From assembly GCF_000633455.1 (NCBI RefSeq), contig NZ_AYMG01000023.1, forward strand, positions 124,001 to 188,000: 64,000 bases of DNA, read 5' to 3'. A program made the position numbers and the translations under genes. The number at the start of each line of letters is the position of its first letter. The stretch's first letter is position 1. Positions 2,382 through 64,000 of the stretch are shown in pieces. This DNA is from Pedobacter jeongneungensis. GTDB taxonomy: Bacteria > Bacteroidota > Bacteroidia > Sphingobacteriales > Sphingobacteriaceae. The notes beneath the pieces were generated by a model. That model was not told the DNA's origin. It saw nothing but the letters and a program-made list of their open reading frames with translations, and ran no database searches.

Positions 2382-3521
2382 ATGTCTCCGAGTAAAAGAT
2401 TAGTTGTAGGCCAAGGCCAGATCAGTGGGTATATTTCTATTTTTTTAGCTGTATTGGCGCTTTTAGGGATCCTTTGTTTTCATTATCCTGAAAAGCTTAC
2501 CACCCCCGAATTCCGCGAAATATACACCAAAGAGAGTATGGAAGCTTTAATGCTTGGTGGTGTTATTGCCTGTTTCTTTTTCGCTTTATTAAGTTTAATC
2601 CTCAGCAAAAAAATTAAATGGGCGTGGCCAGGTTTTGCATTGGGCGCTTTAGCGGTTATACTGGGTGCGTTAAGCGTAGAAGGCAGGGATGTTGCTAAAT
2701 CGAACTGGCATTTTGGGTTAGACTGGATGATCTTAGACCTGCTTTTAATGGTCGCTATTTTTGTTCCATTGGAGTTGTTTTTCCCGAAAAATAATGAGCA
2801 GACCAAATTCCACGAAGAATGGCGTACCGATTTAACGTATTTTGTAATCAGCCACCTGTTTATTCAATTTTTCGGTATCATCACCCAAAAACCTGCAGTA
2901 TTATTTTTTGGATGGATGGGACTGGATAAGGTACATGCCTGGGTACAGGGTTTGCCATTTATAGTAGCCTTGTTTTTGGCATTTTTTAGCACGGATCTTT
3001 TTCAATATTGGGCACATCGTTTTTTCCACACCAGGGTATCGCTGTGGCGTTTCCACTCCATACACCACTCTACACAGAATATGGATTGGCTGGCCGGAAG
3101 CCGTACCCATTTTATCGATATCTTTTTTACCCGTGCCATGACTTTTATTCCGCTTTATGTATTGGGTTTTTCATCAACGGTATTTAATGTGTACATCATT
3201 TTTATTGCCATCCACGCAGTTATGATCCATGCCAATACCCGGATTAATTTCGGACCATTGAAATATATTTTCACAACACCTCAATACCACCACTGGCACC
3301 ATTGCGAAGACCCTAAATATTACGGACATAATTTTGCCTCTATATTCCCTTTTATCGATATGATATTCGGCACTTATTATTTACCAGGCAAGGAATGGCC
3401 GGCAGGAACGGGTGTGCATGAGGCTGCCTACCCGAAAGGTTTTGTTAAACAATCTATTTATCCATTTACCAAAAGTCCGTTCGATACCGATTTGAATATG
3501 GAAGAACGGAGTGATAGATAA
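2382..3521 (+). CDS. Sterol desaturase / fatty acid hydroxylase family membrane protein
   Basis: A 379-residue polytopic membrane protein with hydrophobic segments near residues 17-34, 54-74, 79-94 and 109-129, and further segments after 150. The di-iron histidine motifs of the fatty-acid hydroxylase superfamily are plain: HRFFH at 212-216, HSIHH at 225-229 and HHWHH at 303-307. Such enzymes hydroxylate or desaturate lipids, sterols, carotenoids or alkylglycerol chains; the substrate cannot be told from sequence. The first two or three helices precede the usual catalytic domain and make it longer than minimal family members. It appears to be a single-gene unit, with repeat-rich spaces on both sides. 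The next operon, on the same strand, makes a lipid-like product, but 462 bases of repeats separate them. Confidence 0.85.
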   Translation: MSPSKRLVVGQGQISGYISIFLAVLALLGILCFHYPEKLTTPEFREIYTKESMEALMLGGVIACFFFALLSLILSKKIKWAWPGFALGALAVILGALSVEGRDVAKSNWHFGLDWMILDLLLMVAIFVPLELFFPKNNEQTKFHEEWRTDLTYFVISHLFIQFFGIITQKPAVLFFGWMGLDKVHAWVQGLPFIVALFLAFFSTDLFQYWAHRFFHTRVSLWRFHSIHHSTQNMDWLAGSRTHFIDIFFTRAMTFIPLYVLGFSSTVFNVYIIFIAIHAVMIHANTRINFGPLKYIFTTPQYHHWHHCEDPKYYGHNFASIFPFIDMIFGTYYLPGKEWPAGTGVHEAAYPKGFVKQSIYPFTKSPFDTDLNMEERSDR

Positions 3522-3983
3522 AAAATTAGCGCTAACGCCCGTGTTCAACGATGCAATCGTAAAGCTATTTCTTCACAAGCAATAAACAGATTAAAATAAT
3601 TGGGAAAGCAGTGCCTGCAGTAAAGATTAATGTTAGCCGGGCTTTCCGCTAAATCTTTTGTTTTTGAAGGAAAACAAAAGTATATCGCTGCAATCCCGTT
3701 TAACCAATACTGCCACTGCTGCTATTAAAGGTTTTTAAACCCGGTCTCAAACTGTTAACGTTCCTGTCAGATGGTAACATCTGACTGCACGCTATCTATA
3801 CGCCCAACTCCGTGCCCTCGGTGTCTTTTCTCGGCGACCTCTGTGGTAAAAGTGCAACACGTTCTACGATACAATCATAAAGCTATTTCTGCACTCGTTT
3901 GGAAACGAGCGCAAACGCGTTAAAGACTTGCAACCGGAACAAACAGACATTTAAAGTGTTATATTAGCGTTCCATCTCATTTT
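3522..3983. other. Intergenic region with degenerate repeats
   Basis: 462 bases with no supportable gene. A 33-base direct repeat with about five mismatches lies at 3544-3576 and 3862-3894 (both contain the core AAAGCTATTTCT). The space between holds the perfect hairpin at 3766-3785 and a segment (about 3640-3740) resembling the repeat family seen near 29680-29760. The promoter of the polyketide operon must lie towards the right end, but I cannot place it. Confidence 0.6.
3766..3785. repeat. Perfect short hairpin, 8-bp arms
   Basis: GTCAGATG, a 4-base loop GTAA, and CATCTGAC form an exact inverted repeat. No T-run follows on either strand, so it is not a standard intrinsic terminator. It sits inside a repeat-like intergenic block. 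Confidence 0.75.
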
Positions 3984-5114
3984 ATGCAGCCCGAAACAGA
4001 AATTTTAATTATTGGCGGTGGATTGGCAGGCTTAACTGCTGCACTCCACATGAACAAACTCGGGCTAAATGTGATGCTGATTGAGAAAGATACCTATCCC
4101 CATCATAAAGTTTGTGGCGAATACATTTCGAACGAGGTACTGCCCTATTTTAAATGGCTCGGCCTCGATATTGAAAGCCTTGAACCTGCTTTGATCAGCG
4201 ATCTGATTTTTACTTCCCTTTCGGGCAAAAGCATACAGACGAAATTACCGCTTGGCGGTTTTGGACTAAGCAGGTACACTATAGACCACTACCTCTACAC
4301 CGAACTCATCAAAAGAAATGTAAAGGTGATCCACGATCGTGTTGTGCAAGTGAATTTTACAGATGATCAATTCATAGTTGAAACGGCAACGGCTAGTTTT
4401 GCTGCTTCTTACGTAATCGGGGCTTATGGAAAAAGATCAGCCATTGATGTTAAACTGAACCGGAAATTCATCAACAAGCAATCGCCCTACCTTGCGGTTA
4501 AAGCACATTATAAAGCTAATTTTCCTGATGATGTGGTTAGCCTGCATAATTTCGAAGGTGGCTATTGTGGGGTTTCCAAAGTAGAAAACGATCGGTTAAA
4601 CATCTGTTACCTGGCCAATTACGAAAGCTTTAAAAAGCATAAAAACATTATAGCTAACCAGGAAAACATCCTTTACAAAAACAAGTTCCTAAAAGACATT
4701 TTCGAAAATGCAGAAAATTTGTTTGAAATGCCATTAACCATCAGCCAGATTTCCTTTGAAGCTAAAGAGCCTGTTTATAAACACATTTTAATGATCGGTG
4801 ATACGGCCGGACTGATCCATCCACTTTGTGGAAATGGTATGGCGATGGCTATTCACAGTGCTAAAATTGTATCGACGCTGCTGCACCAAAAAATAGAAGG
4901 CAAAATTGCTTCTCGTGATGCGCTTGAACTAAATTATATTGCACAATGGAACAAGGAGTTTAAAAACCGATTAAAAATGGGCAGGATTTTATCTTCGCTG
5001 CTCAAAAACAATAAATTCGAAAAGTTTGCCATGAATACTTTAGGCAAAATGCCTTTTCTACTCGACACCATTATCAAACAAACCCACGGAAAACCCATTA
5101 CCATTACAACATAA
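3984..5114 (+). CDS. FAD-dependent oxidoreductase of the polyketide operon
   Basis: A 376-residue flavoprotein of the geranylgeranyl-reductase / aromatic-ring hydroxylase type. The Rossmann FAD motif GGGLAG is at residues 11-16, an acidic residue ends the second strand (MLIEKD), and the second FAD motif GDTAGLIHPLCGNGMAMA is near 272-289. It has no signal peptide. Its stop codon overlaps the methyltransferase start by one base (TAATG), so it opens a tightly coupled seven-gene operon. By analogy with Streptomyces SrsC, a flavoprotein beside a type III polyketide synthase may hydroxylate the resorcinol ring to a hydroquinone or quinone; that role is inferred. Reduction of a lipid double bond is an alternative. 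Confidence 0.85.
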   Translation: MQPETEILIIGGGLAGLTAALHMNKLGLNVMLIEKDTYPHHKVCGEYISNEVLPYFKWLGLDIESLEPALISDLIFTSLSGKSIQTKLPLGGFGLSRYTIDHYLYTELIKRNVKVIHDRVVQVNFTDDQFIVETATASFAASYVIGAYGKRSAIDVKLNRKFINKQSPYLAVKAHYKANFPDDVVSLHNFEGGYCGVSKVENDRLNICYLANYESFKKHKNIIANQENILYKNKFLKDIFENAENLFEMPLTISQISFEAKEPVYKHILMIGDTAGLIHPLCGNGMAMAIHSAKIVSTLLHQKIEGKIASRDALELNYIAQWNKEFKNRLKMGRILSSLLKNNKFEKFAMNTLGKMPFLLDTIIKQTHGKPITITT

Positions 5115-5827
5115 TGCCTGTAGATACCACATATAGAAGCACTGCCCCCGAAATTATGGACGATTTTGACATGGAAGGCGAAATATTACGAGATGCACTG
5201 GATAAAATAGCCAGCATTAACCAACTCCTTGGCGGTAATAAAGTTACATTAGATGGGGTTAAAAGCTTAATCGCCAGCAAACCAAAGGATGAAGTTATAC
5301 GTATTACTGATATTGGCTGTGGAAACGGCGATATGTTGCGCACTTTGGCCGATTATGCCAATAATAATGGCCTGCATTTTATGTTGAAAGGAATTGATGC
5401 CAATAGGTTTACCATTGATCATGCAAAAAGTTTATCCGAAAATTATCCCAATATCACCTACGATTGCAGCGATATTTTTGAGGATTTAAGTCAGGATGAA
5501 CCCTGCGATATTATGCTCTGTACCTTAACACTCCATCATTTTAAGGATGAAGAAATTATTAAACTGTTGGAAAATTTCAAAAGATCGGCCAAAATAGGCA
5601 TCGTTATTAATGATCTGCAGCGAAGTGCATTGGCTTATCGCCTTTTTAAGGTTTTATGTTATGTATTTCGGTTAAATGATATGTCGCGCGAAGATGGATT
5701 GGTATCTATCCTTCGTGGGTTTAAAAGATCCGACCTGGTTAAATATACCAAACAATTAAACCTTAAATCGAGTTCGATAAAATGGAAATGGGCTTTCCGC
5801 TACCAATGGATAATTAAAAATATATGA
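5114..5827 (+). CDS. SAM-dependent methyltransferase of the polyketide operon
   Basis: A 237-residue class I methyltransferase. The glycine-rich SAM motif DIGCGNGDM is near residues 66-74, the acidic second motif GIDANRF follows, and CTLTLHHFKDEEI is the usual post-IV stretch. It overlaps the gene before it by one base and the polyketide synthase after it by four (ATGA). Placement suggests methylation of the polyketide product or its ring oxygen, as SrsB does in Streptomyces phenolic-lipid synthesis; this is inferred from the neighbourhood. The C-terminal part is rich in Arg and Lys, which may help it meet membranes or an acyl carrier protein. Confidence 0.87.
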   Translation: MPVDTTYRSTAPEIMDDFDMEGEILRDALDKIASINQLLGGNKVTLDGVKSLIASKPKDEVIRITDIGCGNGDMLRTLADYANNNGLHFMLKGIDANRFTIDHAKSLSENYPNITYDCSDIFEDLSQDEPCDIMLCTLTLHHFKDEEIIKLLENFKRSAKIGIVINDLQRSALAYRLFKVLCYVFRLNDMSREDGLVSILRGFKRSDLVKYTKQLNLKSSSIKWKWAFRYQWIIKNI

Positions 5828-6876
5828 GCGTAACCGTAAAAGCAGTAAGCAAAGCCTTGCCCGAGTTCTGGAGATCAACCGATGAGATTTTACCCTTCCT
5901 TGATGTTTGGCTGAAAGATCATGATGAGCGTTTTATCAGAAAGGTGAAAAAGATTTTCGAAGGTGCAGCAGTTGATAAACGCTATTCGTTCATGTCGCCC
6001 GAAGAGGTTTTTAGCGATTTAAGCTTCGAAGAACGAAATCAGATTTATGTGCGGGAAGGCATTAAATTAGGCGCTAAATGTTTGAGTTCGGCACTCGAAA
6101 AAGCAGGCTGGCAAGCTCAGGATTTAGATTACATCATCACGGTAAGCTGCACGGGCATTATGATCCCATCTTTGGATGCTTACCTGATCAATTTATTGAA
6201 ACTTCGCCAGGATGTGGTGCGTTTACCCGTAACCGAAATGGGCTGTGCCGCCGGGGTATCGGGTATGATTTACGCCAAGAATTTTCTGAAAGCAAATCCA
6301 GGCAAACGGGCAGCAGTTGTTGCAGTAGAATCGCCAACGGCAACCTTTCAGCTCAACGATTTTTCGATGGTCAACATTGTAAGTGCAGCCATATTTGGAG
6401 ATGGTGCGGCCTGTGTACTGTTAAGTTCGAATGAGGAAGATAAAGGTCCTGAAATTTTGGCCGAAGAAATGTACCATTTTTACGATGCGGAAGAAATGAT
6501 GGGTTTTCAGCTTACCAATACCGGATTACGAATGGTATTGGATATTGCCGTACCCGAAACGATTGCTGAACATTTCCCTGCTATTATCCACCCGTTTCTG
6601 GCTAAAAATGATCTTGAAATTAAAGATATAAACCACTTAATTTTTCATCCGGGTGGAAAAAAGATTATCCAGACCGTAGAAGAACTATTTAGCGACCTCG
6701 GTAAAAATATAGACGAAACCAAAGAAGTTTTAAGACTCTATGGAAATATGAGCAGTGCAACGGTACTCTATGTTTTAGAACGTACTATGGATAAAAAACC
6801 GGCAAAAGGAGAAAAAGGATTGATGCTGAGCTTTGGTCCAGGCTTTTCGGCACAAAGAATATTATTGCAATGGTAA
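5824..6876 (+). CDS. Type III polyketide synthase
   Basis: A 350-residue chalcone/stilbene-synthase superfamily enzyme. The full catalytic triad can be placed: Cys141 in EMGCAAG, His275 in FHPGGKK and Asn308 in YGNMSS, with the terminal GFGPGFS-like loop present as LSFGPGFSAQ. Such enzymes extend an acyl starter with malonyl-CoA and cyclise it to alkylresorcinols, alkylpyrones or similar. It has no own ACP, but ketosynthase, dehydratase and ACP genes follow, which suggests that the starter is a carrier-bound or specially made acyl chain. Its start overlaps the methyltransferase stop (ATGA), and the next gene begins 33 bases after its stop. Product identity is unknown. Confidence 0.93.
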   Translation: MSVTVKAVSKALPEFWRSTDEILPFLDVWLKDHDERFIRKVKKIFEGAAVDKRYSFMSPEEVFSDLSFEERNQIYVREGIKLGAKCLSSALEKAGWQAQDLDYIITVSCTGIMIPSLDAYLINLLKLRQDVVRLPVTEMGCAAGVSGMIYAKNFLKANPGKRAAVVAVESPTATFQLNDFSMVNIVSAAIFGDGAACVLLSSNEEDKGPEILAEEMYHFYDAEEMMGFQLTNTGLRMVLDIAVPETIAEHFPAIIHPFLAKNDLEIKDINHLIFHPGGKKIIQTVEELFSDLGKNIDETKEVLRLYGNMSSATVLYVLERTMDKKPAKGEKGLMLSFGPGFSAQRILLQW

Positions 6877-6909
6877 AATTCATTCAATCACTCAATCCTT
6901 CAATAACTC

Positions 6910-7356
6910 ATGACAAAAGAAGAAATATTAGCTAAACTTCCTTACGGCAAATCCTTTCTATTTGTTGATGAATTATTGCATATTGATGAAAATGGTGCAA
7001 AGGGAGTATTTACTTACACTGAAAACCTATTTTTTTACGAAAGTCATTTTAAAAACCATCCGGTTACCCCTGCCGTAATTCTCACCGAAACCATGGCGCA
7101 GATCGGTTTGGTATGTTTGGGAATTTACTTATTAAAAGATAACGATATAGAAGATCAACTATCAATTGCCATGACATCAAACGCGATAGATTTTTTAAAA
7201 CCGGTTTATCCGGGTGAGAAAGTGATTGTAACCAGCGAAAAAATATATTTCAGGTTTAATAAACTAAGCTGCAAGGTAAAAATGGAAAATGTTGCTGGCA
7301 AGGTGCTTTGCAAGGGAAATATTTCAGGTATGTTAATTTCAAAAAGCAATGGATAA
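6910..7356 (+). CDS. FabZ-like 3-hydroxyacyl-ACP dehydratase
   Basis: A 148-residue single hot-dog-fold protein related to FabZ. The stretch SHFKNHPVTPAVILTETMAQ aligns with the FabZ active-site helix and keeps the catalytic His46 and the acidic residue Glu60. It should dehydrate 3-hydroxyacyl chains on the ACP encoded two genes on. It overlaps the ketosynthase start by eight bases, so the pair is translationally coupled. A dedicated dehydratase in a type III PKS operon implies that the operon makes or reshapes its own acyl starter, possibly unsaturated. No ketoreductase is encoded here, so that step would come from primary fatty acid synthesis. Confidence 0.88.
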   Translation: MTKEEILAKLPYGKSFLFVDELLHIDENGAKGVFTYTENLFFYESHFKNHPVTPAVILTETMAQIGLVCLGIYLLKDNDIEDQLSIAMTSNAIDFLKPVYPGEKVIVTSEKIYFRFNKLSCKVKMENVAGKVLCKGNISGMLISKSNG

Positions 7357-8626
7357 CAGGGTTGTAATTACCGGTTTGGGCGTATGTGCACCCAATGGCA
7401 CCACCATTCCTGAATTTTCGGATGCAATAAAAAATGGGATTTCGGGTATCCGTCACCAGCCTGACCTGGAAACTTTAAATTTCTCCTGTCAGATTGCCGG
7501 AAAACCCGAATTGAGCGAAGAACGGATCAGTCGATACTTTACTCCGCTCGAATTACGCAACTTAAATAGTACAGGTATTGTTTATGGTGTAATTGCAGGA
7601 TTAGATGCCTGGAAAGATGCAGGTTTAGCTATAGAAAATAATGACGAACCCGATTGGGACAGTGGATCTATTTTCGGTACCGGAACTTCTGGTATTGATA
7701 AATTTAGATGGGCCATTAATAAAATTGATGAGCTTGAAATCAGGAAACTGGGAAGTTCTGTCGTGATACAAACGATGGCCAGCGGCGTGAGTGCATTTAT
7801 CAGTGGCAAACTCGGATTGGGTAATCAGGTAAGCACCAATTCTTCAGCCTGTGCAACGGGAGCCGAAAGCATTTTACTGGCTTACGAAAGGATTAAATCC
7901 GGTCAGGCTACAAAAATGCTGGCAGGCAGCACCAGTGATAGCGGTCCTTATATATGGGGTGGTTTTGATGCCATGAAGGTTTGTACCTTTAAACATAACC
8001 ACGAACCGGAAAAAGGCAGCAGACCGATGAGCGCCACAGCAAGTGGTTTTGTACCGGGAAGCGGTGCAGGCGCATTGGTTTTAGAATCGCTGGAAAGTGC
8101 ACTGGCCAGAAAAGCCAAAATTTACGGGGAAGTACTGGGTGGCCATATCAATTCTGGTGGTCAAAGGGGCTTGGGAACCATGACTGCACCCAATCCAACC
8201 GCGGTTCAGCGCTGTATACAAACATCCTTAAAAAACGCGGGCATTGAAGCACACGAAATTGATGTGATTAATGGTCACCTTACTGCTACCACCAAAGATG
8301 CCCTGGAAGTAGAAAACTGGAAAGCAGCATTGCAATTACCTCCGGACCATTTCCCCTACATCAACTCATTAAAAGGCATGATCGGGCATTGTATCGCCGC
8401 TTCGGGAAGTATAGAATGTGTGGCCTCCATACTAGAATTATCTGAAGGTTTTATTTTCCCCAATATCAATTGTGAAGATTTAAATCCTGAAATCTCCAAC
8501 TTAATCGATGTAAAAAGCATTCCCCAAACGTTAATCCGACAACCAATTAATATCTTAGCCAAAGCCAGTTTCGGATTTGGCGACATTAACGCCTGTGTTA
8601 TCTTTAAAAAATACTCCTATGAATAA
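7349..8626 (+). CDS. Beta-ketoacyl-ACP synthase (FabF-like, operon-specific)
   Basis: A 425-residue condensing enzyme with a FabF-like layout. The Cys-His-His triad is intact: Cys168 in SSACATGAE, His310 in INGHLTATT and His347 in GMIGHCIAASG, with Lys342 five residues before the last His and FGFGDINAC at the C-terminus. The motif around His310 is unusual: FabF enzymes normally read NAHGTST, while here it is NGHLTAT with Leu for Gly, so the chain pocket or partner choice may differ. It should elongate acyl chains on the operon's ACP. The N-terminus (MDNRVVITGLGVCAPNG) supports the chosen start, which overlaps the dehydratase by eight bases. Confidence 0.9.
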   Translation: MDNRVVITGLGVCAPNGTTIPEFSDAIKNGISGIRHQPDLETLNFSCQIAGKPELSEERISRYFTPLELRNLNSTGIVYGVIAGLDAWKDAGLAIENNDEPDWDSGSIFGTGTSGIDKFRWAINKIDELEIRKLGSSVVIQTMASGVSAFISGKLGLGNQVSTNSSACATGAESILLAYERIKSGQATKMLAGSTSDSGPYIWGGFDAMKVCTFKHNHEPEKGSRPMSATASGFVPGSGAGALVLESLESALARKAKIYGEVLGGHINSGGQRGLGTMTAPNPTAVQRCIQTSLKNAGIEAHEIDVINGHLTATTKDALEVENWKAALQLPPDHFPYINSLKGMIGHCIAASGSIECVASILELSEGFIFPNINCEDLNPEISNLIDVKSIPQTLIRQPINILAKASFGFGDINACVIFKKYSYE

Positions 8627-8879
8627 AGAACAGATTATCGAAGCTTTAAAAACCATCGTTCAGCCTTACAGCGAAGAAACATCAGCCCTGGCCCATATCG
8701 ACGAGAACACCGACTTTATTAATGATTTAAAGATAAATTCAGCCAACCTGGTTGATATCATTCTTGATATTGAAGAAAAATTCAATATTGAAATAGACAA
8801 TGATTCGATGGCAAAAATGCTTAATGTAAAAGCCACTACTGAAATTATTGAATCAAAATTAGCGGCAAATGCTGGGTAA
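8619..8879 (+). CDS. Acyl carrier protein
   Basis: An 86-residue discrete carrier protein. The phosphopantetheine attachment residue is Ser41 in DLKINSANLVDI, where the common DSL is replaced by NSA. The following helix (IILDIEEKFNIEI) is acidic, as in other ACPs. I place the start at MNKEQIIEAL; an upstream in-frame ATG at 8577 lies within the ketosynthase gene and would add residues foreign to ACPs. It overlaps the ketosynthase by eight bases and the phosphopantetheinyl transferase by eleven. It probably holds the chain handled by the neighbouring ketosynthase and dehydratase and may hand it to the type III PKS. Confidence 0.88.
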   Translation: MNKEQIIEALKTIVQPYSEETSALAHIDENTDFINDLKINSANLVDIILDIEEKFNIEIDNDSMAKMLNVKATTEIIESKLAANAG

Positions 8880-9324
8880 TGATATTGTTGATCTGGATTT
8901 AGCCAAAACCCAAAGTAACTGGCGGCGTAAAAACTATCTGGATAAGATTTTTACTGATGAGGAACAGGTATTGATTTCATCGGCAAAAAACCCTGATGGT
9001 ATGGTGTGGCTGTTGTGGAGCATGAAAGAATCGGCCTATAAAATCCATAACCGTAAAACAGGTAACAGAAATTTTGCCCCTAAAATTTTGAAGTGTATTA
9101 TTCATTCAAATATTGATGGAGAGGTAAATATTGATGGAGATACCTATTTCACCAAAAGTAATATTCAAACACCTTTTGTTCATACCATTGCCTCTCCTGT
9201 TTACAACCACTTAGAAGAGATTAAAATCTCGATTTTTGAAGCTCCGAATCATATTTTCGATTATAAAAGCACTAAACCAAGTTGTGTGAGCCACCACGGA
9301 AGGTATTTGGCTTTGGTTTATTAA
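8869..9324 (+). CDS. 4'-phosphopantetheinyl transferase (AcpS-like)
   Basis: A 151-residue member of the 4'-phosphopantetheinyl transferase superfamily. The magnesium-binding motif GNDIVDL is at residues 3-9 and the second motif WSMKESAYK at 50-58 with Glu54. It would activate the operon's ACP by attaching phosphopantetheine from CoA to Ser41. It starts inside the ACP gene (11-base overlap) and is the last gene of the seven-gene operon. A dedicated transferase fits an ACP whose attachment motif (NSA, not DSL) departs from the norm. Confidence 0.88.
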   Translation: MLGNDIVDLDLAKTQSNWRRKNYLDKIFTDEEQVLISSAKNPDGMVWLLWSMKESAYKIHNRKTGNRNFAPKILKCIIHSNIDGEVNIDGDTYFTKSNIQTPFVHTIASPVYNHLEEIKISIFEAPNHIFDYKSTKPSCVSHHGRYLALVY

Positions 9325-20024: not shown

Positions 20025-22448
20025 ATGAAGAAAATACCTCTCTTCTTTTTTGTATTAATAACCTGTGCTACAACAAAAGTTTGGTCTCAGGTAAATCATA
20101 ATGATAAAATCTGGTTTACTTCTCCTGCAAATGCCAATACAAAAGATAATCCGAATGGATGGAAAAGTGATCCCGAATGGTTAAAAGCACTGCCTATTGG
20201 TAATGGTTTTTTAGGTGCAATGGTATTTGGTGATGTAAACCAGGAAAGAATACAGCTTAACGAAAAATCTTTATGGAGCGGTAGTGTAGATGATAATGAC
20301 AATCCGGATGCAGCAAAATACATCCCCGAAATAAGAAATCTTCTTTTTGAAGGAAAATATAAGGAAGCGGCCGAATTAACCAACAAAACCCAGGTTTGCA
20401 AGGGTAAAGGCTCTGGCCAGGGCAGCGGCGCAAATGTTCCCTTTGGCTGTTACCAAACCCTGGGTGATCTGAGAATCGATTTCGGCAAAAAATCCGGTTT
20501 TAAAAATTACTACCGTGAACTCGATCTCATTACCGGAATAGCGCTAACGGAATATGAGCAAGATGGTGTAAAATATAAACGGGAAGTTTTTTCCAGTTTT
20601 CCAGACCGGGCTTTGGTGATTAGATTAACAGCAGACCAACCAAATGCATTATCTTTTTCATTATCGCTAAACAGACCCGAACGATTTACAACCAGAGCAG
20701 AAAAAGATCGCCTGGTAATGAGCGGAACTTTAAATAACGGTAAAGGTGGCGATGGCATGAACTATAAAACCTATGCCGTTCCACAGCTTACAGGTGGAAC
20801 AATAAAAATCAACGGAAATACCTTACAGATTGTAAAAGCAACTTCTGTTACCATTATTTTAACAGCGGCTACAAACTACCGTTTGCATTACCCCGATTAT
20901 ACCAATCCAAATTTTGAAAGTGAATTGAATGTTATAATTAAAAATGCAACAGCCAAAAATTACAGGTTATTACGACAACGGCATGTAAGTGACTTCTCTT
21001 CTTTTATGAAAAGATCGGGTTTGCAGATAAATAACAGCAGCAATAATTTACCAACAAATGAGCTGATGGCTAAAAATGTGCAAAACCATAACGAATCGGC
21101 CCTATATGGGCTATATTATCAATATGGCCGTTACCTCTTGTTATCCTCCTCGCGCAAAGGAAGCTTACCTGCCAACTTACAGGGCATCTGGGCCAATCAG
21201 ATCCAAACACCCTGGAACGGGGATTACCACACCAATATTAATGTTCAGATGAATTACTGGCCTGCAGAGGTCACCAATCTGTCCGAATGCCAGGAACAAT
21301 TTGTTGACCTGGTTTCATCGCTCTTAGCGCCTGGAAAACGTACTGCGAAAGTACAGTACCAAATGGACGGCTGGGTATTACATACCATTACAAATATTTG
21401 GGGTTATACCTCGCCGGGTGAACATCCAAGCTGGGGCATGCATGTTGGTGGTGGTGGCTGGATGTGCGAACATTTATGGGAGCATTATGCCTTTACCCAG
21501 GACAAAAATTATTTAGCAAAAGTATTTCCTATCCTTAAAGAAGCCAGTAAGTTTTATTTGAGCTGGTTGGTAAAAGATCCAAAAACCGGCAAACTGGTAT
21601 CAGGTCCTTCCCCATCACCCGAAAATTCATTCTTAGCCCCCGATGGTGCCAAGGTGCAGATCAGCATGGGCCCTACCCACGATCAGGAAGTGATGTACGA
21701 ATTATTTGGCAATACACTAAAAGCAGCCAGCATTTTAAAAATTAACGAAGCCACATTCCTGAAAAAACTAGCAGATGCCAGACAAAATTTGACGCCGCCT
21801 AAAATAGGTTCAGATGGCAGATTAATGGAATGGAGAGAAGAATTTAAAGAACCTGAATTACAACATCGCCACCTGGCGCACTTGTACGCCCTTTATCCCG
21901 GCAACCAGATTACAAAAGATAAAACACCCGAACTTGCAGAGGCGGCAAAAAAATCGTTGGAAGTAAGGGGCGATGGAGGCGTAGGCTGGACTTATGCCTG
22001 GAAAATTGCCCTCTGGGCCAGATTAAATGATGGCGATAGGGCCTTCAAAATATTAAATGCCCAGTTGCGTCCAACTTCAGATACCGATACCAAATACGAC
22101 CAGGGTGGCGGAAGCTATTATAACCTGTTTGATGCCTGTCCTCCCTTTCAGATTGACGGAAATTTTGGTGTAATTGCAGGGATGGCCGAAATGTTGATGC
22201 AAAGCCACGAAGATTTTATTTCCTTATTACCTGCCTTGCCAACAGCCTGGAAAGAGGGTTCGGTTAAAGGATTGGTGGCAAGAGGTGGTTTCGTAATCGA
22301 CATGAACTGGAAAAACCTTCAATTACAATCGGCAACCCTTGTTGCCAAAAAAGGGGGACTTTGTACCATCAGTTATCAAGGAAAAAAAGTAATATTACAT
22401 ACAAAAGCTGGTCAGCATTACCAAATTGGCGCTGCAGATTTTAAATAA
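20025..22448 (+). CDS. Secreted alpha-L-fucosidase-like enzyme, GH95
   Basis: An 807-residue protein with a signal peptide (MKKIPLFFFVLITCATTKVWSQ), an N-terminal beta-sandwich (to about residue 280), an alpha/alpha-barrel and a C-terminal beta-domain, the GH95 layout. Family marks include ALPIGNGFLGAMVFG and NEKSLWSG at the start, NINVQMNYWPAE in the barrel, LMEWREEFKEPELQHRHLAH (Glu602, likely the general acid) and FQIDGNFG with Asp711. Known GH95 members are inverting alpha-1,2-L-fucosidases or L-galactosidases; the operon favours fucose. It follows the mutarotase by 36 bases. Confidence 0.92.
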   Translation: MKKIPLFFFVLITCATTKVWSQVNHNDKIWFTSPANANTKDNPNGWKSDPEWLKALPIGNGFLGAMVFGDVNQERIQLNEKSLWSGSVDDNDNPDAAKYIPEIRNLLFEGKYKEAAELTNKTQVCKGKGSGQGSGANVPFGCYQTLGDLRIDFGKKSGFKNYYRELDLITGIALTEYEQDGVKYKREVFSSFPDRALVIRLTADQPNALSFSLSLNRPERFTTRAEKDRLVMSGTLNNGKGGDGMNYKTYAVPQLTGGTIKINGNTLQIVKATSVTIILTAATNYRLHYPDYTNPNFESELNVIIKNATAKNYRLLRQRHVSDFSSFMKRSGLQINNSSNNLPTNELMAKNVQNHNESALYGLYYQYGRYLLLSSSRKGSLPANLQGIWANQIQTPWNGDYHTNINVQMNYWPAEVTNLSECQEQFVDLVSSLLAPGKRTAKVQYQMDGWVLHTITNIWGYTSPGEHPSWGMHVGGGGWMCEHLWEHYAFTQDKNYLAKVFPILKEASKFYLSWLVKDPKTGKLVSGPSPSPENSFLAPDGAKVQISMGPTHDQEVMYELFGNTLKAASILKINEATFLKKLADARQNLTPPKIGSDGRLMEWREEFKEPELQHRHLAHLYALYPGNQITKDKTPELAEAAKKSLEVRGDGGVGWTYAWKIALWARLNDGDRAFKILNAQLRPTSDTDTKYDQGGGSYYNLFDACPPFQIDGNFGVIAGMAEMLMQSHEDFISLLPALPTAWKEGSVKGLVARGGFVIDMNWKNLQLQSATLVAKKGGLCTISYQGKKVILHTKAGQHYQIGAADFK

Positions 22449-60765: not shown

Positions 60766-63735
60766 TTACTCCACTATCAAAATCAGACCTTTTCCTTTTT
60801 CAACAGGAACCGATTTTCCATCCACATAACTGCCTGCTATTTGGAATTTATCAATTGCAGGTGCCGTAATTTTAACTTTACCGGCATCTAAACCAAGCTT
60901 AACCCAATCAATGGTTAAATTAACCTTAGTATCTCCTTCTGCCCAGCTCGCTAAAGCAATCATTGTTTTTCCCTGCTTTTTATAAACCGTAGCCAAAACT
61001 TTTGGGTTATCGGTTTTAACCGGGCAGTTTTCGCTCCAATAGCCAATCATTTCAGATCCCTTTATGCCAAAGTTATCCCAGGCTTTCCACAGTGGTTTTG
61101 GATCACTTTTATCCGACCAGCCTAAACGGCTCGTCATGCCATAAATCATCCCACGCCAGGGGTTTCCATCATCCTGCAACATCTCGCCCATTAAACCGAA
61201 AGGAATACCACTTACTTCAGTTAAAAAGAAATCAGGATTATTTTTCTGGTAATCGAAATATTCGCCAAACCATAAACGATTCAGGTAAGGGAAATGCTCC
61301 AGGTATAAAATGGCACTGTTGTTAAAACCATCACTTTTATTGTACTGGTTTGCGGAGTGCAGATCGATAATGCCCGGATGATTATTCTGTGTCAGTACAC
61401 GCTTAATGCGTTTCATGGTTACGCGATCGAAGGCTACATCATCTAAATAAACACCATCAATCCCAACATTATTTACCAGCCAGTTCATGCCTTCTACATA
61501 GTAATTATGCCAGCGGTTCATTCCGCTGTTAATCACAGCCGCATCTTTAATTTCGGGCACAAACCAGGCAGCAATATAATTACTATCCAAATGCTCCTGT
61601 AACCAGCTAAAACCGCCACCTTTACCAGGTGAATATACTTCGGTACCCAAGCTTCTTAAAGCAGGCCACTCGTATGCATGGTTAGAAAGCTCACGAACTG
61701 TATTATAAATCTTGACTTTTAAACCTTTCGAGTGTGCATTATCGATATAACCTTTCATCTTTTTCCATTCGATAAATGGATAATTGATCCAGGGATTAAT
61801 TGGTGTGGCATGGTGAATGTTCACCACCGTTGCGCCTGTCGATTTAATCGAATCTAAATCCCCATACTTATGATAAAAACGGTTATCCCATTGAAAATCG
61901 GTATTGATTAAGTGAAAAGGCGTAATCAGCAAGTTGAAATTGTAATAAAGTACATCCCCTTTTTTCATGCTTCTTGCCCCTGTAAAATTATCGGCCAGCA
62001 TCGAACTGCCTTTTACATTGATCTGGATTCCACCTTTATCTCCGTTACCCCATGATTTAGGTAATAATAAAGGCTTCTGAAGATAAAAATTGGTATTCAG
62101 CGGGCGAACATAGTTTTCATCTCTCAAGTTGTAGTACAGGCCTGCATTCACGTTCCCGATCCATACGGCATCCTGGTTTTTATTGGGCACATCCCATTTC
62201 CATTTTAAGGTATCAGGCCGAATACCACCTTTTTCTCCCAAACCCATTAAATATTTGGTAGAACCTTTATCAAACGGAATATGAAAATCGACATTACTGA
62301 ATGCTACATCCTTTAACGCTGTAACTTTAACCACGTAATGTACATAACCATCAAACTCTAAAGCACCTTCTAAATCCATTTTGAGGTTTTCAGAAGTATT
62401 ACTTGCCGACCATTTTACTGTTCCAGCCTCTTTACTGGTAATCTGGAAATTATTGGGAATAAATTTCTCCTGGGTTTTTGGCGTATTATAAAAGTGAAAG
62501 TGAATAGGCTCAGCCAGGATATTATTCGGTTTTTCGCTATAAGCCGTCATTTCAGCATTAAAGAAAGTCTGGATCTGTTTAGGGAAACCATCTGCGTTAA
62601 TTTCAAATTTTCTGCCTAAAAGAGAGATTACATTTCCCTCAACCGTTAGCGGCGTATAAGGAGCAACCACAGTATTGGCTTGTGCCAAAGTAGAATTTAA
62701 CCAGGTTAAACGAGTCTGTTTGTTTGGCGTTCCTACACCGGCATCAGCTAAAACTTCACTACCTACGGTAATTTTAACATCGATTACTTTAGATTTTCCA
62801 TTGGCTTTGACCGTAAATTTTCCAGCATAAATGCCTGCAATTGTAGTTTTAGGAAAATTTATAGTAATCCACATCGGCTGAATTTTACCTGATACTACAT
62901 TTACTGTCTCTACCAATGGTTTGTTATCGTAACTCGTTCCATTGGTATTTAAACAGTTGATATTTTTCGAAGAAATTATTTTTCCTGCTGTAGTTTTTAA
63001 ATCGCCGAAGTTCACCTCAACGTTTTTTAAATCTTTCAAAGCATATACACCCAATTGAAAAGCATAGTTTTCGCCTTTGCTGGCCGTTCCTGTGAAAGAA
63101 TTTAATGCACCTTTTTGCACCCAACGGTAAGGCAGGTCGTTTTGCATTTTGATGGGGTACATCCTATCCTCCGGAAATACAATAAAAGCTTCGGACGGAT
63201 ATTTTGCTTTAATTGCATTGGTTTCTTTAGCTGTGGCAATCACTTCCATCGGATAAAAAGAGTTGAATGCATCAATGGATTGAATCTCCATCACTGAAGT
63301 ATTCACTTTAACTTGCTTTGCAGCAGCTAACCAAGCCTGATCTACCTGTTTAGGTTTGATGTAAACACCTTTTGGATAATTGCTCCTGCCCTCGTTTTTA
63401 TAAGCGAGATAATACACATAATATTTTCCGGCACCAGTAGTTTCAAAATAAACATCGGCACTTTCTCTAGTTAGTTTATCTGTACCAACAATTGAAATAG
63501 TTTTACCGTTGGCATCCTGAATAATGATTCCTTTTAACTCAGGATGTTCGTCTCTTCTACGCCAGTCTATTTTTGCATGGCCAATCTTGCCGTTACCTGC
63601 AAACTGTAACACAATCCTGTGGTTACCCAGCGAATCAGGGTTCCAGGCATTATTGCCATTCGTATATTTTAATATTTGTGCATTAAGGGATAGCTGCCCG
63701 AATAGACAGAACAGTAGAAAAAGCCTAAATTTCAT
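60766..63735 (-). CDS. Large secreted glycoside-hydrolase-like protein
   Basis: A 989-residue exported protein. ATG at 63735 gives MKFRLFLLFCLFGQLSLNAQ, a clean signal peptide; a TTG two codons upstream is less likely. The first ~600 residues are beta-sandwich-like. A barrel follows (VVNIHHATPINPWINYP, KGLKVKIYNTVREL, GIDGVYLDDVAFDR near residue 763, GIIDLHSANQYN), then a beta-domain that ends it. The paired aspartates in VYLDD resemble catalytic acids of amylase-like or GH123-like barrels. The order recalls the DUF6067 group, but I could not name a GH family. It is a lone gene; CAAACGTTTG lies about 70 bases upstream. Confidence 0.7.
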   Translation of the reverse strand: MKFRLFLLFCLFGQLSLNAQILKYTNGNNAWNPDSLGNHRIVLQFAGNGKIGHAKIDWRRRDEHPELKGIIIQDANGKTISIVGTDKLTRESADVYFETTGAGKYYVYYLAYKNEGRSNYPKGVYIKPKQVDQAWLAAAKQVKVNTSVMEIQSIDAFNSFYPMEVIATAKETNAIKAKYPSEAFIVFPEDRMYPIKMQNDLPYRWVQKGALNSFTGTASKGENYAFQLGVYALKDLKNVEVNFGDLKTTAGKIISSKNINCLNTNGTSYDNKPLVETVNVVSGKIQPMWITINFPKTTIAGIYAGKFTVKANGKSKVIDVKITVGSEVLADAGVGTPNKQTRLTWLNSTLAQANTVVAPYTPLTVEGNVISLLGRKFEINADGFPKQIQTFFNAEMTAYSEKPNNILAEPIHFHFYNTPKTQEKFIPNNFQITSKEAGTVKWSASNTSENLKMDLEGALEFDGYVHYVVKVTALKDVAFSNVDFHIPFDKGSTKYLMGLGEKGGIRPDTLKWKWDVPNKNQDAVWIGNVNAGLYYNLRDENYVRPLNTNFYLQKPLLLPKSWGNGDKGGIQINVKGSSMLADNFTGARSMKKGDVLYYNFNLLITPFHLINTDFQWDNRFYHKYGDLDSIKSTGATVVNIHHATPINPWINYPFIEWKKMKGYIDNAHSKGLKVKIYNTVRELSNHAYEWPALRSLGTEVYSPGKGGGFSWLQEHLDSNYIAAWFVPEIKDAAVINSGMNRWHNYYVEGMNWLVNNVGIDGVYLDDVAFDRVTMKRIKRVLTQNNHPGIIDLHSANQYNKSDGFNNSAILYLEHFPYLNRLWFGEYFDYQKNNPDFFLTEVSGIPFGLMGEMLQDDGNPWRGMIYGMTSRLGWSDKSDPKPLWKAWDNFGIKGSEMIGYWSENCPVKTDNPKVLATVYKKQGKTMIALASWAEGDTKVNLTIDWVKLGLDAGKVKITAPAIDKFQIAGSYVDGKSVPVEKGKGLILIVE

Positions 63736-64000
63736 TATCAATTTGTTTTAGGCTAATTTATGTATAGCAGATTGAATTAAAGCTATGTAATGAAAAAATG
63801 AGACAAACGTTTGCTTTGTTGGTTCATTTGTTCATTAGGCAATGGTTTATTGGTGGGAGCTGTTGTCATTCTGAGCGCAGCAAAGAATCCCTTTTCTAGT
63901 ACCCCAGAAATTTCAATGTCCACAAATCGTTGTAATTTGGGTTTATCTGTTTATTAAGGTCAGCATTTCATAGCTTAAAGATTCTTCACCATGCTCAGAA
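63736..64000. other. Intergenic region at the right edge
   Basis: The first ~110 bases are the leader and regulatory space of the 989-residue gene, with the palindrome at 63804-63813. A fragment of a GTCATTCTGAGCGCAGC repeat lies at about 63866-63895. I see no gene in the last 150 bases. Confidence 0.5.
63804..63813. promoter_or_regulatory. Palindromic operator-like site CAAACGTTTG
   Basis: A perfect palindrome 69 bases upstream of the ATG of the 989-residue gene. The right flank CTTTGTT nearly repeats that of the pruA site. A LacI-family regulator is a natural candidate; none is in the window. Confidence 0.4.

Follow-up and report, generated by a model that had tools for sequence, protein, structure and literature searches.

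A conserved seven-gene type III polyketide synthase operon of Pedobacter with its own acyl-chain genes, a candidate phenolic-lipid pathway

Described systems and the Pedobacter operon

In the hierridin-type hidABC operon and in planctomycete gene triads, a methyltransferase, an oxidoreductase and a type III polyketide synthase (PKS) are encoded together in one operon and yield alkylresorcinols with long chains; these systems are mainly three-gene, some with further tailoring genes (PMC8086630, PMC10896814; here and below, statements on cited papers refer to the portions of their text that were available). When planctomycete type III PKSs were placed in C. glutamicum, the host formed 5-pentadecyl- and 5-heptadecylresorcinol; addition of the methyltransferase and oxidoreductase of G. 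maris led to methyl forms of alkylresorcinols (PMC10896814). Streptomyces srsABC and the pks10 operon of M. smegmatis likewise combine a type III PKS with methylation and oxidation and lead to methylated phenolic lipids and quinones; dedicated chain builders are not mentioned for them in the available text (PMC5916927). We describe here an operon from a 64,000-nucleotide stretch of the Pedobacter jeongneungensis genome (the window; positions 124001-188000 of contig NZ_AYMG01000023.1, in a genome of 6.7 Mb). At window positions 3984-9324, genes for a type III PKS, a methyltransferase and a flavoprotein form a single gene run, as in the srs- and hid-type phenolic-lipid operons, and to these are added genes for a dehydratase (DH), a ketosynthase (KS), an acyl carrier protein (ACP) and a phosphopantetheinyl transferase (PPT), the comparison with the triads being one of function.

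Direct hand-over of an acyl chain from an ACP to a type III PKS also has precedents. In Azotobacter vinelandii, a fatty acid synthase serves the type III PKSs ArsB and ArsC, which accept acyl groups directly from the built-in ACP domain of ArsA, and germicidin synthase is a further example (PMC6274091). CylI, the type III PKS of the cylindrocyclophane pathway, is fed an ACP-bound chain by large type I PKSs (PMC8086630). In the Pedobacter operon, by contrast, the chain-building enzymes are discrete and fatty-acid-synthase-like: KS, DH and ACP are separate genes for separate small proteins, the ACP is free, and no multidomain synthase carrying its own ACP, as in the ars type, is encoded among the seven genes. 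ArsA itself is a type I synthase. The operon combines known parts; its interpretation is sharpened by the reductase of related loci and by a shared cassette, both described below.

All seven open reading frames (ORFs) lie on the + strand, and every product passed the Pfam gathering cut-off. The first encodes a flavin adenine dinucleotide (FAD) flavoprotein, a probable ring oxidase or hydroxylase (3984..5114, 376 aa, PF01494 E 1.2e-12). It is followed by a class I S-adenosylmethionine methyltransferase, PRK06202-like (5114..5827, 237 aa, PF13649 E 3e-12), and by the PKS (5824..6876, 350 aa, PF00195 and PF02797 above cut-off) with its Cys141-His275-Asn308 triad. The remaining four genes encode a FabZ-like 3-hydroxyacyl-ACP dehydratase, the DH (6910..7356, 148 aa, PF07977 E 3.4e-13; His46, Glu60), a FabF-like beta-ketoacyl-ACP synthase, the KS (7349..8626, 425 aa, PF00109 and PF02801 above cut-off; Cys168, His310, Lys342, His347), the ACP (8619..8879, 86 aa, PF00550 E 3.7e-5), whose phosphopantetheine site Ser41 lies in the motif INSAN, and a PPT of the AcpS superfamily (8869..9324, 151 aa, PF01648 E 2.2e-12). 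We place the ACP start at the ATG at 8619; the TTG start of the ORF list, at 8577, falls within the KS gene. Five of the six junctions overlap (by 1, 4, 8, 8 and 11 bases), the exception being the junction of PKS and DH, where 33 bases intervene, which bears out the original prediction of an unbroken run of overlapping or closely spaced genes.

That prediction had also equated the first three genes with srsA-srsB-srsC; the likeness holds by function only. Its statement that the operon has no ketoreductase or acyltransferase was upheld by Pfam on all seven products, and Pfam likewise found no thioesterase or acyl-CoA ligase among them. The active sites, read from alignment columns, are intact: the PKS triad, correctly named at the outset, is invariant in 122 of 122 type III PKS rows, and so are the four KS residues (104/104 rows), His46 and Glu60 of the DH (106/106), Ser41 of the ACP (104/104) and Asp5, Lys53, Glu54 and Lys58 of the PPT (96/96).

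Conservation of the operon and lineage of its chain-building genes

Relatives of the PKS formed a high-scoring group, clade A (at least 524 bits in a sample of the order and at least 516 bits in a sample of the phylum). Such a PKS was present in 99 of the 300 order-sample genomes, where the next match fell to 211 bits, and in 33 of the 395 phylum-sample genomes, where the next match scored 217 bits. Within Pedobacter, 32 of 36 genomes (the window genome included) carried it with an identity of at least 74%, and the nearest named relative was a Pedobacter metagenome-assembled genome with a PKS 93% identical. From a scan of named genomes the best 80 of 277 relatives were kept as named loci (42 Pedobacter, 32 Flavobacterium, 1 Dyadobacter, 1 labelled Candidatus Nitrotoga and 4 without a genus); together with 19 loci chosen for coverage of other genera, these made up the 99 clade-A loci that we examined.

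The gene order was kept in 76 of the 80 named loci, 75 of them with exactly the seven genes and one (L085) with seven plus an extra gene. Three of the other four (L076, L082, L121) are interrupted by contig ends, and the last, L097 from Dyadobacter sediminis, is rearranged: DH-KS-ACP-PPT and a reductase lie on the other strand, and the stretch yielded no flavoprotein. Among the 19 chosen loci, nine show all seven in order (an additional ORF is inserted in the operon in L178 and L180), six have the seven plus a reductase, and four (L171-L174) have the reductase, with no PPT found. The KS clade follows the PKS clade in every case. A KS search of the order sample at E 1e-120, with a KS of the dar-linked type described below as query, gave one match in each of 130 genomes, so that at this threshold PKS-linked and dar-linked forms did not occur together in any genome; once the 31 genomes with the dar type (at least 652 bits) were set aside, the remaining 99 were identical to the 99 PKS genomes. 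In 98 of these the two genes lie on one contig, at most 3 kb apart, and in one (G022) on different contigs. In the phylum sample, a KS of at least 555 bits was found in exactly the 33 PKS genomes. This complete co-occurrence (99/99 and 33/33) rules out chance adjacency, and the gene order that the original prediction proposed to look for across Bacteroidota is indeed kept; the operon is confirmed as real and conserved.

Some individual loci have features of their own. L121, the locus labelled Candidatus Nitrotoga, is a 5.3 kb contig with a PKS 79% identical and is probably a mis-binned Bacteroidota contig. The inserted ORFs of L178 (6779-7156, a GIY-YIG domain protein) and L180 (7445-7969, a MepB-like protein) are unrelated to the operon and occur in loci that lack the reductase; that of L180 occupies the slot in which relatives have the reductase. 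In two reductase-bearing loci, genes for small proteins of 76-81 aa that look hydrophobic by eye adjoin the ACP gene (L171:11807-12037 and L175:11638-11883).

The chain-building genes differ from those of primary fatty acid synthesis. The operon KS scored 269 bits against the FabF model TIGR03150, under its cut-off of 493.75, and is 33% identical to each of the two other single-domain FabF-type KSs of the genome; two further KS matches sit in very large frames of 1433 and 2357 aa. In a KS tree of 28 rows (25 chosen loci, the window and the genome's own two KSs), the 21 operon rows formed one clade (Shimodaira-Hasegawa-like approximate likelihood ratio test, SH-aLRT, 96), with dar-linked and glycosyltransferase-linked rows adjoining it and the genome's own two KSs far off. 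By score and by clade, then, the operon KS is not the primary FabF. Trees served for the KS, and the DH and ACP were compared with primary genes by identity and motif. The DH matches FabZ structures (E down to 7.8e-10); the other DH match in the genome, a stretch of 105 residues within a frame of 471 aa, is 33% identical to it. The primary ACP gene lies elsewhere in the genome, next to genes for a FabF-like KS and RNase III, and has ADSLD at its phosphopantetheine site, compared with INSAN in the operon ACP; (I/V)NSAN was found in 99 of 104 operon and cassette ACP rows. The off-consensus INSAN site may be the reason for a private PPT. A strict rule that an INSAN ACP always comes with a dedicated PPT was considered and is broken by L171, L172 and L174 (and by L173, with INSSH).

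Four genes of fatty-acid families could in principle have come to stand beside the PKS triad by accident as ordinary primary genes. We regard this as scarcely credible: the genome has its separate ACP gene and its own DH match, and the accident is already contradicted by the low KS identity and the KS tree. The original prediction had named a grouping of the chain-building genes with primary ones, and no conserved link to the PKS, as the outcome that would count against it; for the KS the opposite was found in the tree and in both samples.

The three PKS-triad genes appear to be older than their partners. We examined 19 chosen loci of distant type III PKSs (28-39% identical) over neighbourhoods of about 8 kb at E 1e-3, the stretch of L159 being shorter. 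None had relatives of the operon's DH, KS, ACP or PPT within that distance. In five (L164-L168) the PKS is flanked by a flavoprotein 38-45% identical and a methyltransferase 30-38% identical to those of the window; L163 has weaker neighbours of both kinds (21% and 25%), and the other 13 have neither. Because some of the distant-PKS loci carry the triad genes and none has the cassette, PKS, methyltransferase and flavoprotein look like an older core to which the DH-KS-ACP-PPT cassette was added.

Upstream of the operon, window positions 2382-3521 (+) encode a membrane protein of the fatty-acid-hydroxylase superfamily (PF04116; OlsE-like, under cut-off). This gene is 85-99% identical where present in named Pedobacter loci and was not found in the Flavobacterium loci; it was rejected as an operon member, being confined to Pedobacter among the 80 named loci. 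No Bacteroidetes-type promoter (TTTG-N17-23-TAnnTTTG, a consensus from general background, at most one mismatch) was found in 3522-3984, where a promoter is still possible. Elsewhere in the window, 20025-22448 and 60766-63741 hold ordinary genes of glycan degradation: one for glycoside hydrolase family 95 and one that matches GH123_N very strongly (1489 bits).

The cassette beside dar genes and the enoyl reductase of relatives

Twelve of the 99 clade-A loci carry a further gene for a short-chain dehydrogenase/reductase of about 265 aa, the reductase mentioned above, which we assign as an enoyl reductase (ER). It lies between PKS and DH in 11 loci (L085, L170-L177, L179 and L189), and L097 has the split arrangement. 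In the three copies tested, the best NCBIfam model was FabL (141-150 bits, under the cut-off of 328), and the best structure for the ER of L176 was FabL 3oic (E 3.1e-26). The active-site pattern Y-X6-K, which is the spacing of enoyl reductases, was found in 15 of 15 copies, including two dar-linked ones and one from another cassette without this PKS. We therefore rejected the extra gene as the missing ketoreductase, as the Y-X6-K pattern and the FabL model place it with the enoyl-reductase type. The window genome has no close counterpart of this ER (26 matches, the best-scoring 29% identical).

To the distribution of the ER we compared a quick PKS tree of 69 rows (50 clade-A and 19 distant), in which 27 of 66 inner branches were under 80 and the outgroup branches were long. 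Clade A formed one clade against the 19 distant rows (100). The ER label needs five changes on this tree, and its carriers are among the early branches, for which repeated loss of the ER would be the simplest reading.

The chain-building genes also occur without this PKS. A KS of 436-506 bits was present in five further genomes of the phylum sample. In two of their loci, L212 and L213, ER-DH-KS-ACP-PPT runs divergently from dialkylresorcinol (dar) genes of the flexirubin type (DarB 635 and 615 bits, cut-off 550; DarH 454 bits in L212, cut-off 300). The dar-type KS of the order sample was found in 31 genomes that share a single genus code (g26), and we examined 22 such loci: 21 of these 31 genomes (L212 included) and L213, from another family. 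With DarA-, DarB- and DarH-like genes recognised by phmmer match to the L212 proteins, ER-DH-KS-ACP adjoins them in 20 of the 22 loci, and a PPT was found in 19 of these 20, L245 being the one without. All 22 ACPs have INSANL and all 22 ERs have Y-X6-K (17 by pattern search, five by eye). The dar and type III PKS loci share nearly the same cassette and differ in the ring former: DarB is a ketosynthase of another family, and the operon PKS scored 19.5 bits against the DarB model NF053539 (cut-off 550). A cassette beside dar genes is not described in the available portion of the flexirubin paper PMC3992019. In L214-L216, the other three of the five, the cassette has a third context: models for a family 2 glycosyltransferase were matched by neighbouring genes of L214 and L215, and L214 also gave a weak match to an acetyltransferase (GNAT) model.

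Proposed pathway, alternatives and meaning

We consider it likely that the operon encodes a phenolic-lipid pathway with a private type II acyl builder, in which acyl-ACP is handed to the type III PKS and the product is oxidised and methylated. We infer its catalytic steps, the direct hand-over from ACP, the help of host enzymes, the product class and the order of tailoring as follows. The PPT would arm the private ACP, and KS and DH would extend an acyl chain on it, assisted by the host malonyl-CoA:ACP transacylase (FabD) and ketoreductase (FabG) and, in the window lineage, by a host enoyl reductase or none. Either this acyl-ACP or a beta-ketoacyl-ACP would pass directly to Cys141 of the PKS, which would add malonyl-CoA units and close the ring, most likely to a 5-alkylresorcinol, with an alkylpyrone as the alternative. 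The flavoprotein would then oxidise the ring, and the methyltransferase would methylate it. The proposal that a special acyl-ACP starter is turned into a methylated, hydroxylated resorcinol, pyrone or quinone lipid, already made in the original prediction, gains support from the separate KS clade, the complete PKS link and the cassette beside dar genes. Because nearly the same cassette adjoins dar genes in 20 of 22 loci, a chain builder for a resorcinol-type lipid is favoured.

For the tailoring steps, the methyltransferase scored 130.6 bits against NF004851, under the cut-off of 243. The best NCBIfam model of the flavoprotein was GG-red-SF (94.6 bits, under the cut-off of 158.8), and its AlphaFold model (predicted local distance difference test, pLDDT, 89.5) was closest to PltA, FasV and ChlB4 (Z 36.1-35.6, PltA best at 36.1), followed by PHBH-type hydroxylases (Z 33) and a geranylgeranyl-reductase-like protein (Z 32.3). 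A GxGxxG-type pattern was present in 98 of 102 flavoproteins. Flavin-dependent halogenases have the motif WxWxIP; a halogenase role is less favoured, for the fold would allow it, PltA-type halogenases being the closest, but WxWxI was found in 0 of 102 flavoproteins. Purely by analogy with the srs- and hid-type triads, we prefer ring oxidation as the probable role.

Several observations weigh against the pathway as drawn. The nearest PKS by both sequence and fold, Pks11, makes alkylpyrones and not resorcinols. For the flavoprotein fold, halogenases and hydroxylases are about as good a fit as a geranylgeranyl-reductase-like protein (Z 36 to 32), the pattern xDGxxS was found in 0 of 102 flavoproteins, and the planctomycete product table gives methylated products only, with no support there for ring hydroxylation (PMC10896814). 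L171-L174 keep an INSAN- or INSSH-type ACP with no PPT found nearby; a PPT gene next to that of the ACP is therefore not required in every case. The dar link is a result of gene neighbourhood and comes, in 21 of 22 loci, from one genus; two of the loci (L239, L242) have no dar genes in the stretch, and the gene that we take to be darA is named by its position and from general background, no Pfam or NCBIfam model having matched it. In L214-L216, which share one family code, DH-KS-ACP (with an ER as well in L214) adjoins glycosyltransferase and acetyltransferase-like genes, which are not known ring-formers.

The rival readings differ mainly in what the PKS releases and in what the cassette feeds. 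A Pks11-like PKS might lactonise a triketide or tetraketide to an alkylpyrone, possibly methyl-branched, which the methyltransferase would turn into a pyrone methyl ether. Pks11, an alkylpyrone synthase, is the best match in the PDB by sequence (E 5.5e-51) and the closest fold to the PKS model (pLDDT 88.9; template-modelling, TM, score 0.91), and methylmalonyl-CoA could be at hand, as genes of the methylmalonyl-CoA mutase family are present in the genome (best 756 bits). The identity to Pks11 is only about 30%, however, and CylI, a resorcinol former fed an ACP-bound chain, is nearly equal in fold (TM 0.90); the flavoprotein in the triad and the cassette beside dar genes also point to resorcinols, and we hold the pyrone to be unlikely. 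A further PKS class was looked for with the model of DpgA (3,5-dihydroxyphenylacetyl-CoA synthase), against which the operon PKS reached 179 bits, under the cut-off of 425. It is quite improbable, in our view, that the cassette has a product of its own, an unusual fatty acid or enoyl thioester, while the PKS uses ordinary acyl-CoA, the genes being merely co-regulated. Many type III PKSs do use acyl-CoA, and the cassette occurs elsewhere without this PKS; against this stand the complete co-occurrence in both samples, the conserved gene order (76 of 80 loci) and the lack, among the seven genes, of a thioesterase or acyl-CoA ligase that could free or activate the chain.

The degree of saturation of the product is a separate matter. 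The ER-less lineage of the window might make an unsaturated (enoyl or polyenyl) resorcinol or pyrone and its ER-bearing relatives saturated ones, a possibility that we rate as somewhat unlikely. DH and KS are intact, yet the ER of relatives is without a close counterpart in the window genome, and the five label changes with early-branch carriers fit repeated loss. A host enoyl reductase of primary synthesis could nonetheless stand in, and the PKS tree is quick and has many weak inner branches and long outgroup ones. More broadly, and with confidence that stays short of even, we suggest that ER-DH-KS-ACP-PPT is a portable, insulated cassette which Bacteroidota have joined to at least two unrelated ring-formers, DarA/DarB and the triad with the type III PKS, with a third lipid pathway as a possible further case; its own PPT would arm a private carrier whose INSAN recognition helix is off-consensus, and repeated loss of the ER in Pedobacter and most Flavobacterium would have changed a saturated tail into an unsaturated one.

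The open-licence literature that we searched, in the portions available, names no product of the Pedobacter seven-gene operon. Surveys of Flavobacteriaceae put type III PKSs at 10.74% (PMC10734526) and 9% (PMC7440613) of biosynthetic clusters, with products not named in the text available. A table in PMC9100364 ties T3PKS (type III PKS) clusters of Spirosoma and Flavobacterium to 'hypocrellin and kanamycin synthesis', which we do not take as the product of this operon. Seven genes are common to the type III PKS clusters of five Pedobacter isolates from amphibian skin; the genes are unnamed in the available portion, and we claim no match to this operon. Differences in those clusters may contribute to varied chytrid inhibition, with no clear pattern across all isolates (PMC10452622).

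Type III PKSs make up about a tenth of Flavobacteriaceae clusters; the PKS of this operon was present in 32 of the 36 Pedobacter genomes, and Flavobacterium supplied 32 of the 80 named loci. The presence of the cassette beside both the type III PKS and the dar genes allows the product class to be predicted in a concrete and testable way. If the proposed pathway is true, these bacteria would have a natural fatty-acid line kept apart from primary metabolism by a carrier and an activating enzyme of its own, a useful case for the engineering of lipid starters.

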